This document shows positions 2,154 through 49,600 of a stretch of DNA of 64,000 bases, piece after piece; position 1 is the first letter of the stretch, and every line of letters begins with the position of its first letter. Source of the DNA: Lichina pygmaea (lineage: Eukaryota > Ascomycota > Lichinomycetes > Lichinales > Lichinaceae); assembly GCA_963422465.1 (NCBI GenBank), contig OY730171.1:682001-746000 (forward strand), written 5' to 3'. The translations under genes were made by a program, and so were the position numbers. Under the pieces are notes generated by a model. The model had not been told where the DNA came from. It saw only the letters and a program-made list of their open reading frames with translations, and searched no databases.

Positions 2154-2920
2154 CCCCCCCCCCGTCCCTTCGGTACGCCCAGGACACCCCTCCGCCAGGA
2201 GGGGTGTCGGACAGTTCAATGACCCGGACAGCTCGATGATCGCTTTCTTGTCAGGATCAATTACAATGTCTATAACTCCACAACACAACAACTAAATAAA
2301 GATGTAAGTGGCTCATTTGATTCCTATACTTCTGTACTATCATCTCTGAAGTTATAGACCTCTCTAGATATTTGTGGTGTTGCTGAGAAATCATGATAGT
2401 GGTCACTCAACAAGAGATTTCCAGTAATATTATTTTTACAACACTCATAACTCCACAGCTAGATAGACAAGTAGCAGTTTTTATGCGTCCATCTGATTCT
2501 CCTACTCCTATACTGTAGTGCTATCCCTTAAATTGTAGACTCTCCCTGACTTTGCTGGTGTTGCTGAGTAGCTATTGTAGCCTGACTTGCCCAAGTAGTA
2601 GTCTTTCTCAATCCTCTCATGAGAGCTCACTTCTCTCACAATAGTAAGCTTTTTCTACTCTCAAAGTCGCTGTACAGAGTACTGAGACATCAAGTTCCCT
2701 GGCTAACTTTGGTACAGCGATAGCATTTTTACAGTCGGAGATGGAATCCACACCTTCTGTGATATGAGCCTCAGCTTCCTTGTAAGATTTGGCCATGTTT
2801 CCGTGGAGCGGTAGTGATTTGAAATTGGTGGTTATCAGCGGATTTACTAGCGATCATTGAACTGTCCGACACCCCTCCTGGCGGAGGGGTGTTCCGGACG
2901 TACCGAAGGGACGGGGGGGG
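2154..2920 (-). mobile_element. non-autonomous Tc1/mariner-pogo-like DNA element, copy 1
   Basis: A 767-bp element is bounded by TA dinucleotides (2152-2153 and 2921-2922). It carries terminal inverted repeats of about 75 bp that start with a C-run followed by GTCCCTTCGGTACG. Within each TIR lies a second small palindrome (ACACCCCTCC...GGAGGGGTGT). On the minus strand a start at 2796 opens with MAKSYKEAEAHITEGVDSI, which resembles the N-terminal helix-turn-helix region of fungal pogo/Fot-type transposases. The rest of a transposase is absent, so this is an internally deleted derivative. The interior also holds two diverged tandem copies of a segment of roughly 130 bp ending in a GTGGAGTTAT motif. 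A homologous second copy lies at 26261-27346. The family name is inference from TA flanks, TIRs and the N-terminal fragment. Confidence 0.72.
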
Positions 2921-8496: not shown

Positions 8497-10456
8497 ATGA
8501 AGTTCCTCAGTGCGCTTGTCGCCGCCGCCGCGGTGTTGTCCTCTAATCTTGTATCCGCCGCTCCTCAGGAGACCGAGGCCACGGGCGCAGTCCAGACCCA
8601 GGGCCCCGAGGTCCCGGACGACGTCCAGATCGACGCCCCCGAGCTCGCGGACGACGCCGAGGTCGCGGACGACGCCGAGGTCGCGGACGACGCCGAGGTC
8701 GCGGACGACGCCGAGGTCGCGGACGACGCCGAAGCCGCGGACGACGCCGAAGTCGCGGACGACGCCGAAGCCGCGGACGACGCCGAACTCGCGGACGATG
8801 CCGAACTCGCGGACGATGCCGAACTCGCGGACAACGCCGAAATCCCGGCCGCCGAGCTCCAGGGCGATGATGCGGCCGACACCGCCGAGCTCCGGGCCTA
8901 CGAGTCCGAAGTCAAGGCCGACGGCTATTACGGGTCGAACCTCCGCCAGATGGAGCGACGGTACAGAAGATACGTCAGGAGAACGCTGCGGCGCCGGACC
9001 AGGAGGGGCAGGAGGGGCAGGAGGGGCGAGTGCAACCGGAGGAACGTGATTGTCAGAAAAGACTGGTGAGCCTTCGACGCCTTCTACCTTTCGATGCCGG
9101 CGCCGATGCGCGCCAGAGATGTGTCTCGACGCTGACGTACGTCGCACGACAGGGGGCGCATGCGGCGCAGGGAACGCAGGCGGTACCAGGAGGCCGTGCG
9201 ATGCCTGTACAAGAAGGGACCTCCGTTGAGCCCGCCGAGCATCGTGCCTGGCGCGCGCAACCGACTCGACGACTTTGTCGGCTCCCACCTGATTGAGGCC
9301 CAGAACATCCACTTCAACGGTTATCTGTTCGGCTGGCACCGTCACTTCGTGTATCTGTACGACCAGGCCCTACGCAACGAATGCGGCTACAGGGGTCCGA
9401 GCCCGTACTGGGACTTCACCCGCCACTGGCGGGACCCTCGCAGGTCGCCCGTCTTTAACGGCGGCCGCTTCTCCATGGGCGGTAACGGCAGGCCGTACCC
9501 GCACGGCGCTACGAGGCTCGACGTCCTTGGCCTGGAGCTCAACCTGACTGCCGGCACCGGTGGCGGCTGCGTCGAGGACGGTCCATTCACCGATCTTGTG
9601 GTGAGTCTTTGGCTCCTGATTGCATCTCACGTCCCTTCGCCCCCCTCTCCCGTGTTTCTGTCCTGTGACCACGCTTTCCCTCTCGTCCGATTTTGACCGA
9701 GCTTGCTGACCCTCCCGGCGCTCAGGTCAATCTCGGTCTCATGCCTACCATCCTCCCTCCCGAGGGCGAGACCTTTGAGGCGCCGATCCCGCGCAACGAT
9801 ACGGGCCGCAACGAGGGCGCGCTCGGGTACAATCCGCGCTGCCTGACGCGCGACATCAACCTGGGGTGGAGCAATTCGACGAAGCGCCTCGACGTCGAGT
9901 ACCTGATGCAGTGTTCCAACATTGAATGTCTCGAGAGGCGCGTCGACGGCTGGGAAGGCCCGCGCACCAATACGGAAAACGGCCGATACAACAGGCTAGG
10001 CATGCCGCAGGTCCACCCCGCCGGTCACTTCAGCATCGGTGGCCTGCAGAACGATCCCTTTGCGAGCCCCGGCGATCCCGTCTTCTTCCTCCTCCACGCG
10101 ATGGTCGATCGCATCTACACCATCTGGCAGGCGCAGAATCCTTCGGTCCGACTCAATGAGGTCGGTGGAACCAGGACACCGTTCAACAGTGAGTTGCTCC
10201 CCTTCAACAACTTCTTTTCTCCCTCCTTCCCTCTTTCTTTCCTCTCTCTCTCTCCCTCCATCTCTCTTTCCGGCCGCTCTATGACTCTTCAAGAATGTAC
10301 CGCTAACAAGTCATCTCTTCTTTCTCTCTCCTAGTGCCTCCTTCGGACCAAGTCAGCAGGAACGACGTTCTCAGTTTCCCAAACGTCGGCAGCGACATCA
10401 AGCTCAGCGACACGCTCTCGACCATCGATGGGCCGTACTGCTACAGATACGCCTAG
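8497..10456 (+). CDS. secreted tyrosinase with acidic-repeat N-terminal extension
   Basis: This is a type-3 copper enzyme that should oxidise phenols to quinones, with possible roles in melanin or cross-linking. Four exons, 8497-9065, 9153-9600, 9726-10188 and 10335-10456, give 533 residues. A signal peptide covers about residues 1-22 (MKFLSALVAAAAVLSSNLVSA). Eleven acidic six-residue repeats (ADDAEV and variants) fill residues 51-116. A strongly basic Arg-rich stretch follows at about 148-178. The CuA histidines are H235, H243 and H252 with canonical x7 and x8 spacing. The CuB histidines are H436, H440 and H463 (HPAGH and FFLLHAMVD). The model ends shortly after GPYCYRYA, so the usual C-terminal lid domain of long tyrosinases is missing, as in short secreted fungal forms. 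Intron phases all close. The start was chosen because the signal peptide begins there and a TATA box lies upstream. Confidence 0.9.
8647..8844 (+). repeat. 11 tandem copies of an 18-bp acidic coding repeat
   Basis: The unit GCGGACGACGCCGAGGTC encodes ADDAEV. The copies differ by single codons (V, A, L or I at the last place; one D to N). The near-identity of the first four units suggests recent slippage expansion. It lies wholly inside exon 1 of the tyrosinase. Confidence 0.92.
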
Positions 10457-11382
10457 TGGAATCGAAGAACGGGAGGAGGGAGATGACGAAAAGAAGAGAA
10501 GGAGAAGAAAGGAAGAAGAGAAGAGGAAGAGGAAGAGGATGACGCGCACGACCGAAATCTCGTTTGTCTGTTTGGTCGGACTGTTTAAAAGCATTTCTTG
10601 CATCTGTCTCTTCTTCTCCTTTTTTTCCTACTTCTGTCCGCTCTTCTTCCCGATTTTTCCCCGCTTCGTCTGCTCTCCTTCGTCTTCTTTTTCATCATCT
10701 GCTATTCTTCGTCCAGTCTTCTTCGCCTGCCCTGCATATGAAAAGCCACATCCATCATCATCATCATCATCATCATCATCGAGTGACATCACCACGGGTG
10801 TCTTCTCCCTCTTTCAAATCTCACCACTCTGTTTTGCACCACCCTTTATCTCCCCTACTCTTCCTCTGTCCAACCTTTTGCTTTCCTTCCCTTTTCCTTC
10901 TCTTTTCTCCAGTTCACACTCAAGTCTTGGACTTTGCATTCTTATTTTCACTGTGCCAGAGCGCGGGCATCACCAACTGTCGTCACTCCTTTTGTTCAAG
11001 GTCATTTGGTGTCCAAGGTTGTTCGGGTGTTTGGCCAAGGGTTGCATTGGGGTGTGCATGTTATGCCGTTGTTTCTGTACGACTCTACCTCGTACCTCCT
11101 TCTGTACAACAGAGTATCAATGTTTTGCTGCTCTCTCCATTGGTCTTCCGTCAGTCTTTCTTCGCTGGTCTTCGTATTCGATCTTCGGTCATCTTTTGGC
11201 CTTTGCTCTTCACTCTCTGCTTATCTCTCTCTATCCCTCTCTCTGCCACTAAAGTACTCAGTAAACCTTCTCCCCCTCCAACCCCCAACTTTCCCTCCCT
11301 TCTCCCAAAGAAGTAGAATGTAAAACAGCTCTACTTTCATATTTTGGTCGGACAATTACTACGGTAACCCCCTCTAAGCACG
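10457..11382. repeat. polypurine then polypyrimidine low-complexity tract
   Basis: Immediately after the tyrosinase stop, about 90 bp are almost pure purine (GAAGAGAAGGAGAAG-like). From about 10600 to 11300 the same strand becomes C/T-rich. A run of nine CAT triplets lies at 10753-10780. The two halves are partly complementary. No gene is supported. It is probably the 3' UTR and flank. Confidence 0.6.
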
Positions 11383-24350: not shown

Positions 24351-25872
24351 GATCATTTTCTGCTTAACCACGATGACGACCAGGGCATCGTGGAGTCTAG
24401 TGGCCATCGTACGATGGAGTACGCACGATATATTTGTTCGACTGTGAACGCTACAGCGAGCAGCGGGAGAAGAAGATGAGTGTCACGACTGATAGATTGA
24501 TTAGAGGGAACTAGCTAATCATCTATATGCAGACACGAAGCTGATGTTTGCCTTAGAGCGACAGAAGGCTCTAGAAGGCACGAGGCGGATCCAAGGCGGG
24601 TCCATGCAGGAGTCCGCGGCACCATGCGGCAGCATCGGGATCATCGGGATCATCGGTGGCACTATGCGGCAGTAGCAGGCAGTAGCAGGATCAACATCAA
24701 ACAATATTCAGGGGGGTGTACTCCGTACCTGCAACAGACCAAAGAAGGGTATACCTCTAATAACAGTAGAGGTTTATGTTGAAGATAGTAAGGCTTATAT
24801 ACAACACGTCTTTTTTCTTCTTCGATAATCTGGTGGGTCTTGCAGCCCGCATCAGACAGAATAGTGATAGTCCTTTGCCACACCTTGTTGAGAGTGGTGG
24901 AAGGTGCGACCGAGGTGCTTCACTTAAGGCCTCAGGCTGTCTGCAAAGCTGATGCTCAGACTGGAAAAAATTCTGTGAAAAGCTCGGCATGGTATCTTGC
25001 ACCAAGCCGGAGTTAGAGGAAGTTGTCGGGGTGTGATGTAGTAGTCCCAAGTGGACTGGACAAGGTTATCAAGCCTCCAGCAGTCCATCATACTTTGAAC
25101 ACACACTTGGTAGGGGTCGGCAATAACGTAGTTCATTGCTCCCTAGCAAGAACGGACTGGCGGAAGTTGTGTCAAATTATATAAGACTTTATCACAAGGG
25201 TATCCTTCAAATCGAGAGAGGCACCACAAGGATGTTGTTAGTCAAGGAAGACTGTAGTTTGTGTATGTTCACTGTGAAGTGTTGGGAAAAGCTGGGTTTG
25301 CGATCGTGAAGATGTAGCTGAGCACAGATTGCCTGTCAGCAATCGGAATGTTGCCAGCCCCAAGCGGCATGATCAATGCCACCACCTTCCGTGCAGGTGG
25401 TCAAGTATACCAGCTGCTGGTCACTGGTTTAGACAGACGGTCAGCAAAAGAACAGTCTCTCGGTAGTTCTCTGCCTATCTTGGTGGATTGTAAACAGTTC
25501 CCTTTTGGATATCCGTCAGAAGAAAGTAAAAATAAACTAACGATGGTGAAATATTAGGTCGCTCAGGGAAGAAAGCTTCCAATAGCTGCCCGACAAACTT
25601 GACCAGAGTGACTGGGATGCCATAATGGTTTGGTTGACGTCGCAGATTCCACAGCTGGCTCGGCCAACCGTAGAGAATGTTATTCCTGTCTTGCTGGAAA
25701 ATTGTCCGGTTGAGAATGTGGTGAAGAGCTGGAAATCGTCTCATCTAGACATTCTTGGTTGCTGGAGACATTGGTGGTTGCTGGAGACATTGACACGGTA
25801 AACCGGGATAGAATAAGCAGAATCTGACACACTGAAGAGGAGAAGTAAATCTGATCAAGTTGCAAGTGGGGC

Positions 25873-26003
25873 AGTGCTGGAGCTACAAGGCATCAGCCTG
25901 CTCAGAGAGGGGAGATGAAGCTGTCGATTGAAACCCTCTCGGACTGGGCCCCGCCAGCTGACTAAGCTAGGCCCAGCCCTAGCCCTGCCTGCCGTCGCAA
26001 CAG
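25873..26003 (+). repeat. dispersed repeat, copy 2
   Basis: This segment starts GTGCTGGAGCTACAAGGC and ends GCCGTCGCAAC. It matches the stretch at 12212-12345 in the same orientation with many substitutions. It lies about 260 bp before the second TA-flanked element. Confidence 0.55.
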
Positions 26004-26260
26004 GCAGCGCTCTGAGTGTGTCCAGGCTGGCCTCCTATGAGCACGTGGGGCACTATCCTGTCCCACTGATACTTCACCGCTCTGCCACTTACGCCAAAAG
26101 CAGTGCCACCAGTCCCCCATGGGCAGTGCTTTTTGTAGTGCTCAGATATATCGCTGACAATGCTACGTTGGGGTTTTCTAGGCCTCGTTTGGATGAAACA
26201 GCATTATAAATTTTGAAAAAATTTGACCGCCCAGACCGTTGTGTCACGGGGGGTAAATTA

Positions 26261-27346
26261 CCTCCCCCCCCCCCAACTCTCCCGTTCCTTCGGTACATCG
26301 GGGACATCTCTCGGTTGGGAGGGGTGTCGGACAATTCAATGACCTGGACAGTTCAATAATTGCTAGTAAATCTCAAACCACTACCGTTCCACCACAACAT
26401 GGTCAAATCTTACAAGGAAGGTGAGGCTCGCATCGCGGAAGCTATAGATTCCATCTCCGACCATACCAAAATTGGCCAGTGAATTTGGTGTCCCAGTACA
26501 GCAACTTTGAGAGTAGAAGAAGTGTACATACGTACTATTGCGACACAAGAGCTCTTGTGAGAAAGACTACTAGTTAGGCAAATTAGGGCTACAGTAGCTA
26601 CTCAGCGACACAGCATAACCAGGAGGAGCCTACAACCTCAGGCATAGTAGAAGAAGAGTAGGGGAATCAAATAGGCACATAAAAATGCTACTTGTCCATC
26701 TAGTTGTGGAGTCATTTTTTTTTGATTTGATTCTTACACTGATTCGGCTGTTAAGCCATGCAGAACTTCTTGAAGGAATTTTGTCTCTGGTAGACTTGAC
26801 TCAGGAACCTCACGTATTTACCGTACACACCGTGGGTTGTAGTGTACGTACTGTGGGAAAACCCCAAACCCCGTAGGGAAAATAGGAAAACCACAGTAAT
26901 GAGGGTTTGTGGATCTTGACGGATACTGGGTGAGCTATTTCTTGAGGGCTTTCATACATCTTGCGAGGAGTACATCTTAGACAAGTTCTATGGATCTCGG
27001 GGTTTTTTGTGGCAGAATGTGGGGTGGGTCAGATTCGAACTGACGACTAGTTTAGTCAGGTTCTCCAGGCCTGACACCACTAGTTCCGGGTCATGGGTGC
27101 CACGTAGTGGGAAACTCTCACCAGCTTCCTACTACACCATGCCGCCCCAGTTGTGGAGTCATAGAAGCCTACAATCTCAAGGATTGCAGTAGAGAAGTAG
27201 AGGAATCAAATGAGCCGCTTACATTCTCACTTAGTCACTGTGTTGTGGAGTTATAAGCATTGGAGTTGATTCTGTCAAGAGGGCGATCATAGAACTGTCC
27301 AGGTTATTGGACTGTCGGAGAGGTGTCCCGGGACAGGAGGGGCGGG
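26261..27346 (+). mobile_element. Tc1/mariner-pogo-like DNA element, copy 2, carrying a SINE
   Basis: This is homologous to the element at 2154-2920 but in the opposite orientation. TA dinucleotides flank it (26259-26260 and 27347-27348). The left end keeps a C-run, CCGTTCCTTCGGTAC and the inner GAGGGGTGTCGGACA block. The right end is more diverged. A start at 26399 opens MVKSYKEGEARIAEAIDSI, like the transposase N terminus of copy 1, then soon decays. Without the inserted 434-bp SINE and its duplicated target the element would be about 640 bp. It is a dead, non-autonomous copy. Confidence 0.7.
26715..27148 (-). mobile_element. tRNA-derived SINE with 13-bp target-site duplication
   Basis: A 434-bp insert is flanked by direct repeats AGTTGTGGAGTCA at 26702-26714 and 27149-27161. 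On the minus strand it starts GGGGCGG and ends in nine A residues (T-run 26715-26723). The head is tRNA-like. A perfect pol III A box TGGTGTAGTAGG lies at 27139-27128. A T-arm GTCAG-TTCGAAT-CTGAC (27044-27028) contains the B box. The first seven bases pair at six of seven positions with CCACCCC (27027-27021). Between the boxes lies a long hairpin (27047-27083). The other DNA element in the window has the matching site without the insert, near 2444-2460. Together these show a SINE retroposed into an older DNA transposon. Confidence 0.82.
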
Positions 27347-27386
27347 TATTGATACCCCTCATGGCAAGCCTTATGATCATATGCAG

Positions 27387-48714: not shown

Positions 48715-49600
48715 GATGTCCGACGGAGATTGCGATCAAAAGATTGGGTGATGTTTTTGTCGAACGTCCCATCAACACAGTCCAAGGGGTCTCAACAGCT
48801 AACCAAATCAGATGCCCAACAAAAATTCGGCACTGTTGATAAAAATTTGTCGGACATCGCTTTGGCGAAGGGACCAAAATTTGGGAGCGACATCTGACAA
48901 ATATTGGCAGAGATGGTCACAGTTGGTCGGACATCGTGCTGGCGAGGGCCATGATTCTCAGGCGATGCCTGACAAACATTGGTGGAGATGGTCACAGTCT
49001 GTCGGACATCTTTTGTTGGCAACCGGTCACCCCAGATGACTGACAAACATTGCAGACAGTCAAGATCTGTTGGACATCTTGTTGGCGAGAGGTCACAGAT
49101 ACAACAGATGTCCAACAAACATTGGCAGGGATGATCAAGATTTGTTGGACTTCTCTATTGACTAGGGGTCTACTGAAGTGCAGAGATGTTCAACAACATT
49201 GGCAGAGACAGTCATAGTTTGTCGGACATCTTATTGCCAAGGGTCTAGAATCTGGAAGCGATGTCCAACGCATTTGCAGAGATGGTCAAAACTTGTCAGA
49301 CATATCTCATTGGTGAGGGTCAGAAATTTCTAAGTCCTCGTCACGATGTCCAACAGACATTGGTGGGCGACAAAAAGTTATTGAATGTCTCACTGCCAGT
49401 GATGAAAGTTAGTTGAACATCTTATTGGCTAGGGATCAAAAACTTTGGAAGTCTCCAAGGCGATGTCTAACAAACATTCAAATTTCGTCAGACATCTCAA
49501 TGGCGAGGGGACCAAAATATTAAGCTCAGTCTGACGGAGAGGTGATCAAAATTCTTCGGGCATTTCTCATTCGCTAAAATTGACTTCACTCGATCGGAAT
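48715..49600. repeat. degenerate tandem repeat of about 74-bp period
   Basis: The core word GTCGGACATC (or a close variant) recurs at about 48849, 48926, 49000, 49070, 49143, 49220, 49294, 49379, 49411, 49486 and 49555. Spacing is mostly 69-85 bp. Each unit also carries ACAAACATTGGCAGAGATGG and GGCGAGGG(G)ACCAAAATTT-like words. About eleven units are visible and diverged. It fills the space between the alcohol dehydrogenase and the coiled-coil gene. No protein reading is consistent across units. Confidence 0.85.

Follow-up and report, generated by a model that had tools for sequence, protein, structure and literature searches.

SINEs are established in several fungi: Mg-SINE, Foxy, the Blumeria elements and AfuSINE2 are named in a 2016 paper, which lists the few fungi known to have SINEs and adds an oomycete (PMC5063351). 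Mg-SINE of Magnaporthe, as described there, is 472 bp long and present in ca. 100 copies, with a tRNA-related head that is said to form a cloverleaf and a 3′ end that resembles the MGL LINE (PMC5063351). AfuSINE2 of Aspergillus fumigatus is a low-copy element of 140-493 bp with pol III boxes, duplications of 4-14 bp and a tRNA-unrelated region; according to the same paper, none of its 5′ regions can be folded as a cloverleaf, and its A and B boxes are degenerate, the A box more so (PMC5063351). Later work finds SINEs in rust fungi too, where they account for less than 0.2% of the genomes (PMC12210899). SINEs outside the ascomycetes are therefore not new in themselves. The fungi named in the 2016 list are ascomycetes.

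The MINE/WEIRD chimeric retrogenes of Magnaporthe are a second point of comparison. These are LINE-made fusions, bipartite or tripartite, with duplications of 10-20 bp, one of them exactly 14 bp; their 5′ part is WEIRD RNA and not a tRNA-like head, and their 3′ parts are 5′-truncated LINE or SINE pieces (PMC2104539).

Here we describe an insert from a 64,000-nt stretch of Lichina pygmaea DNA (the window). Two proteins encoded in this DNA indicate a fungus: RPB2 has PDB chain 3h0g_B (Schizosaccharomyces) as its best match, and for Nup85 the one PDB match is chain 4ycz_B, from a filamentous ascomycete; the latter match is moderate (256 bits over 569 query residues), so that the two species are probably not closely related. 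At 434 bp against the 472 bp of Mg-SINE, and with its boxes, duplication and tail, the insert fits the known fungal SINEs; it is known from one copy and is likened to Mg-SINE by description. It shares with AfuSINE2 the size range, the pol III boxes, a duplication of suitable length and a tRNA-unrelated region, and differs from it in having a minimum free energy (MFE) fold that is a cloverleaf. The insert is, we think with good confidence, a full-length tRNA-headed SINE that entered a nonautonomous DNA transposon with TA flanks (the host) through target-primed reverse transcription of the LINE type. Taken as one copy, it is of an ordinary kind; as a candidate for a family it is possibly new.

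Table 1. Positions of the insert, its parts and the two host copies in the window
Feature	Position	Strand	Remarks
SINE-like insert, probably retroposed, 434 nt	26715..27148	minus (= sense)	between direct repeats identical over 14 bp; 5′ end tRNA-like, 3′ end A9
Target-site duplication at insert 5′ end, AGTTGTGGAGTCAT	27149..27162		14/14 identical to 26702-26715
Target-site duplication at insert 3′ end, AGTTGTGGAGTCAT	26702..26715		base 26715 ambiguous with A-run
3′ terminal A9 run	26715..26723	minus	
tRNA-like head	27021..27148	minus	MFE cloverleaf (predicted); sole placement of acceptor and T arm with A box on either window strand
Acceptor	27142-27148 with 27021-27027	minus	6/7 pairs, one C.A mismatch
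D-side hairpin	27092-27141 (sense 8-57)	minus	18 pairs
Middle (anticodon-side) hairpin	27046-27084 (sense 65-103)	minus	12 pairs, 9-nt loop
T arm	27028-27044	minus	perfect 5-bp stem, 7-nt loop, GTCAG-TTCGAAT-CTGAC
Discriminator position	27020	minus	
Pol III A box TGGTGTAGTAGG	27128..27139	minus	begins at sense nt 10
Pol III B box AGTTCGAATCT	27031..27041	minus	begins at sense nt 108
Body, without evident tRNA similarity	26724..27019	minus	296 nt; no long frame
Host copy interrupted by insert, nonautonomous TA-flanked DNA transposon	26261..27346	plus	TA at 26259-26260 and 27347-27348
Second host copy	2154..2920	minus	inverted arms 2156-2222 and 2854-2920 (67 nt, 96%); TA at 2152-2153 and 2921-2922
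Unfilled site of second host copy	2447-2460	minus	target motif 12/14 identical
83 bp without counterpart in interrupted copy	2364..2446	minus	adjoins target-site motif

Ends of the insert and their flanking repeat

Read on its sense strand, the insert opens with GGGGCGGCATGGTGTAGTAGG (GGGGCGG first) and closes with GAATCAAATCAAAAAAAAA (nine A's). The 5′ end falls exactly on base 1 of the acceptor and the 3′ end is the A9 run, which serves as the A-rich tail expected of a SINE. The direct repeat on either side is 14 bp long if a shared T (A in the sense strand) is counted with it and 13 bp if that T is assigned to the A-run. A first, sequence-only reading of this DNA had reported an exact duplication of 13 bp; the exactness stands, but the length is better given as 14 bp, the 14th base being inseparable from the A-run. 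What that reading said otherwise of the boundaries was borne out: the size of 434 bp between direct repeats, the defined ends and orientation (tRNA-like head at the 5′ end, A-run at the 3′ end, minus strand as sense) and the terminal run of A's, nine in number. The ends, the orientation and the duplication can all be seen directly in the DNA, in each case at the single copy. The insert also has the length (100-600 bp) and the lack of coding capacity usual in a SINE, with no stop-free stretch longer than 72 aa in sense or 76 aa in antisense.

A perfect 14-bp repeat is not very rare by itself. When the window was scanned for perfect 14-bp direct repeats at a spacing of 80-700 bp (words made up of only one or two kinds of letter were omitted), they were found at four places: the flanks of the insert, a tandem array at about 8.65 kb, and pairs at about 11.4/11.7 kb and about 47.1/47.5 kb. 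The repeat that flanks the insert is set apart by its exact placement at the ends of the tRNA-like head and the A-run. At 8645-8841 the window has an 18-bp tandem repeat, TCGCGGACGACGCCGAAG, in 10.9 copies, with open frames overlapping it on both strands.

Host transposon and insertion site

The sequence-only reading had placed the insert inside an older DNA transposon, and this was upheld: homology to the host runs on either side of it, and the host is an inverted-repeat element flanked by TA in both of its copies. When the two copies are aligned, 497 of 603 columns agree (82.4%; gaps, the insert and one duplicate excluded). The interrupted copy is degenerate, with the poorer pair of inverted arms (37 nt at 81%) and a shorter right end. 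The nesting, like the ends of the insert, is a direct observation. Both host elements end in C/G runs and contain two internal modules, which in the better copy lie about 175 bp from each other and which finish in TGTTGTGGAGTTAT-like motifs. TA flanks, long inverted repeats and the lack of any intact transposase in view are features the host has in common with nonautonomous elements of the Tc1/mariner type; its origin from a DDE/D transposase gene is putative, and the two remnant frames (59 and 27 aa) have no Pfam match at E <= 1. One short host frame, MAKSYKEAEAHITEGVDSISDCKNAIAVPKLARELDVS, resembles by eye a DNA-binding motif of the pogo/Psq type but has no match in Pfam.

The motifs that end the host modules raise the question of whether the flanks of the insert are the host's own internal repeat, with the middle either ancestral to the host or placed there by recombination and not by retroposition. 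Such a reading would draw on the similarity of the flanks to the TGTTGTGGAGTTAT motif, and on the second host copy, in which the downstream flank does not follow directly behind the motif. We nevertheless regard it as very improbable, on three grounds. First, the flanks agree with each other at all 14 positions, whereas the native motif copies in the hosts (27241-27254 on the plus strand; 2272-2285 and 2447-2460 on the minus strand) are each 2 of 14 positions off the flanks; two further sites in the window with up to 3 mismatches from the motif lie outside the hosts. Second, the native modules of the interrupted copy end at 26702 and at 27241, and both ends keep the register of the second host copy; the motif copy at 27149 is therefore extra. 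Third, the ends of the intervening DNA match a tRNA-like acceptor and an A-run.

Retroposition into the host is thus preferred, and the second host copy shows where it took place, with one reservation. The element at 2154-2920 had been described as keeping the uninterrupted site. Homology does continue through the motif (12/14), but beside the duplication there are 83 bp (2364-2446) without counterpart in the interrupted copy, and the downstream flank of the insert aligns 83 bp further on in the second copy; because of this offset the empty-site argument is weaker than it was made out to be. A separate deletion in the interrupted copy, either earlier or later than the insertion, is the simplest account of the 83-bp difference. 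The element at 2154-2920 locates the insertion but is no clean empty allele.

tRNA-like head, and body without evident tRNA similarity

The promoter-box matches are plain in the sequence and agree with the sequence-only reading, which had an A box and, within the T arm, a B box. The A box fits the consensus TRGYNNAGYNGG, unlike the degenerate A box of AfuSINE2. The cloverleaf is a prediction: an unconstrained MFE fold of the first 130 nt of the insert gave four arms at -52.5 kcal/mol, and the fold was better than those of shuffled sequences (z -2.86; 1 of 200 as good). The long hairpin noticed earlier between the boxes is present; of the predicted arms, two are long. Near-perfect pairing of the acceptor, also claimed from sequence, is found in this fold (6/7 pairs) but is not the register in which the Rfam model aligns the head (see below).

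Several controls bear on how easily such a shape arises. A descriptor (acceptor with at least 6/7 pairs, T stem of 5 bp without mismatch, TTCR loop, and an A box close to the 5′ end) had one match on the two strands of the window, which is the insert head, and one match in total across 30 Markov-randomised windows. With the A box left out, the two strands together had 9 matches, and the randomised windows had a mean of 5.67 per strand; in this form the descriptor is not enriched above chance. Of 2000 random 130-nt segments taken from the window, 4 had a terminal arm of 5 bp and 7 nt directly inside a terminal stem. A looser test for a three-branch cloverleaf was passed by 75 of 1500 random segments and was dropped as evidence. 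All three tests (descriptor, strict arm and three-branch) were devised after the sequence and its fold had been seen. Elsewhere in the window, at 27962-27915 on the minus strand, TGGCGGAGCTGG also matches the A box, and GTTCAAGTC comes 39 bases after it; the descriptor of acceptor, T arm and A box has no match at that place.

Programs built for tRNAs were less generous to the head. Whole-window Rfam scans (gathering threshold; E <= 10) found no tRNA, and none was called by ARAGORN, including in runs that permit introns. When a 1301-base stretch was searched, the only tRNA match was one of 17.0 bits to the Rfam model at 27020-27138 (E 2.4 over 4227 families; gathering score 29). It has the T arm and the discriminator at 27020 in common with the MFE fold; its acceptor 5′ strand starts at 27138, inside the A box, and makes 5/7 pairs as against 6/7 from 27148. 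Because the registers differ, Rfam gives no confirmation of the acceptor at 27148. A fold of the minus strand as a tRNA, suggested as a check by the sequence-only reading, has a divided outcome: a cloverleaf at minimum free energy, but an Rfam score below the gathering score and no ARAGORN call. The insert has the pol III-boxed, tRNA-related head of a SINE in the sense of a tRNA-like one, with a sub-gathering Rfam score in another register. It is tRNA-like and is not a tRNA. At 10469-10681 a purine/pyrimidine-rich stretch with inverted arms gave several weak, sub-cut-off matches to plant microRNA precursors, which are likely compositional.

The T arm, both boxes and (in the MFE fold) the acceptor are tRNA-like enough that one could think of a tRNA gene or pseudogene with a long insertion, not mobile at all. 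Introns of tRNAs lie 3′ of the anticodon, and here the extra sequence extends beyond that position; the intron-permitting ARAGORN runs made no call, and a tail of about 300 nt, an A-run and direct repeats are present, all of which makes an immobile gene hardly credible and agrees with the earlier remark that the insert is unlike a plain tRNA gene. What would be unusual in a SINE head, if the predicted fold is right, is the combination of an 18-bp D-side arm and a 12-bp anticodon-side arm with an intact acceptor and T arm. The fold would place the head at the well-preserved end of the range, as compared with AfuSINE2 (no cloverleaf) and Mg-SINE (cloverleaf).

The body, estimated at about 300 bp by the sequence-only reading and measured at 296 nt, contains three TTTT runs (sense nt 259, 267 and 288), and these could end pol III transcription early. 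Folded whole, the 434 nt are only slightly better than shuffled sequences (z -1.42; 9 of 100 shuffles as good), and the opposite strand gave a z of -1.03.

Search for relatives and a partner, and probable origin of the insert

No second copy of the insert was found in the 64,000-nt window (E <= 1, 7-base words). Five exact-match scans of viral contigs, four for parts of the insert and the fifth for part of the host, had 0 matches each, and blastn against 50,697 phage and 72,556 plasmid records had none. When bacterial and archaeal genomes were scanned once, the one match was of 21 bases and lay in an Armatimonadetes MAG; it had no extension and was judged to be chance. These collections (viral, plasmid and prokaryotic) are ill-suited to finding copies of a eukaryotic SINE. 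A partner LINE was looked for among 30 frames of the window, a minority of its frames, in Pfam (three sets of 10, with E limits of 0.001, 0.01 and 1; two of the 30 were the host remnants), and no reverse transcriptase was found among them. No account of the insert was met among the literature matches listed (titles and starts of abstracts), with subscription papers mostly outside that scope.

CpG depletion, which may mark silenced repeats, was considered as an indicator of repeats and set aside. The CpG value is 0.58 in the insert and 0.52-0.55 in the host pieces, against a median of 0.97 for 293 scanning windows; 25 of 87 such windows with GC < 0.52 are equally low, and TpG/CpA is not raised. 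Two other CpG-poor places were noted along the way. The stretch 24430-26000, beside the host element, is low in CpG at several places, includes a tandem repeat of 19 bp (25747-25792) and may be decayed transposon sequence, and a 77-bp tandem array at 49043-49247 (2.7 copies, 72% matches, CpG-poor) is possibly a decayed repeat element.

A single copy would also be expected of a one-off chimeric retrogene, in which a LINE reverse transcriptase jumped from an A-ended body RNA to a tRNA-like or SINE RNA that became the head, and the fusion integrated with a target-site duplication and founded no family. Head and body differ in G+C (0.566 vs 0.446), an A6 run stands at sense nt 141, just past the head, and the bipartite and tripartite retrogenes of Magnaporthe with their 10-20 bp repeats are a precedent (PMC2104539). 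SINEs, though, are themselves composites of head, body and A-tail, so the same facts fit a SINE; and the long-armed tRNA-like cloverleaf, to judge from the fold, is unlike the plain cellular tRNA that a random template would be expected to supply. A one-off fusion of this kind is accordingly unlikely in our estimate, and a SINE remains the preferred account.

On that account, the internal A and B boxes would have let TFIIIC and pol III transcribe the element, the start being at the first acceptor base, which is some 10 nt upstream of where the A box begins. The A-ended RNA would then have been captured by the reverse transcriptase/endonuclease of a LINE; the old DNA transposon would have received a staggered nick, this nick would have primed reverse transcription at the A-run, and repair would have left the 14-bp duplication. 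We infer all of these steps from established SINE biology; the DNA itself holds only the scars that they would leave.

A bolder proposal, which we offer as speculation and think rather unlikely to hold in full, is that the insert belongs to a young, lineage-specific family of fungal SINEs with an enlarged tRNA head that does not decay. The acceptor and T arm would have been kept while the D-side and anticodon-side arms grew to 18 and 12 pairs, and the shape might be under selection to hold TFIIIC and perhaps tRNA-binding factors; the long arms might also block cleavage between head and body by RNase P and RNase Z, a cleavage that would kill the element. Being a clean, full-length copy with defined ends, the insert can serve as a seed for finding a family, and should the enlarged cloverleaf recur in further copies, along with compensatory changes, they would provide a test of whether SINEs keep the tRNA shape for function.
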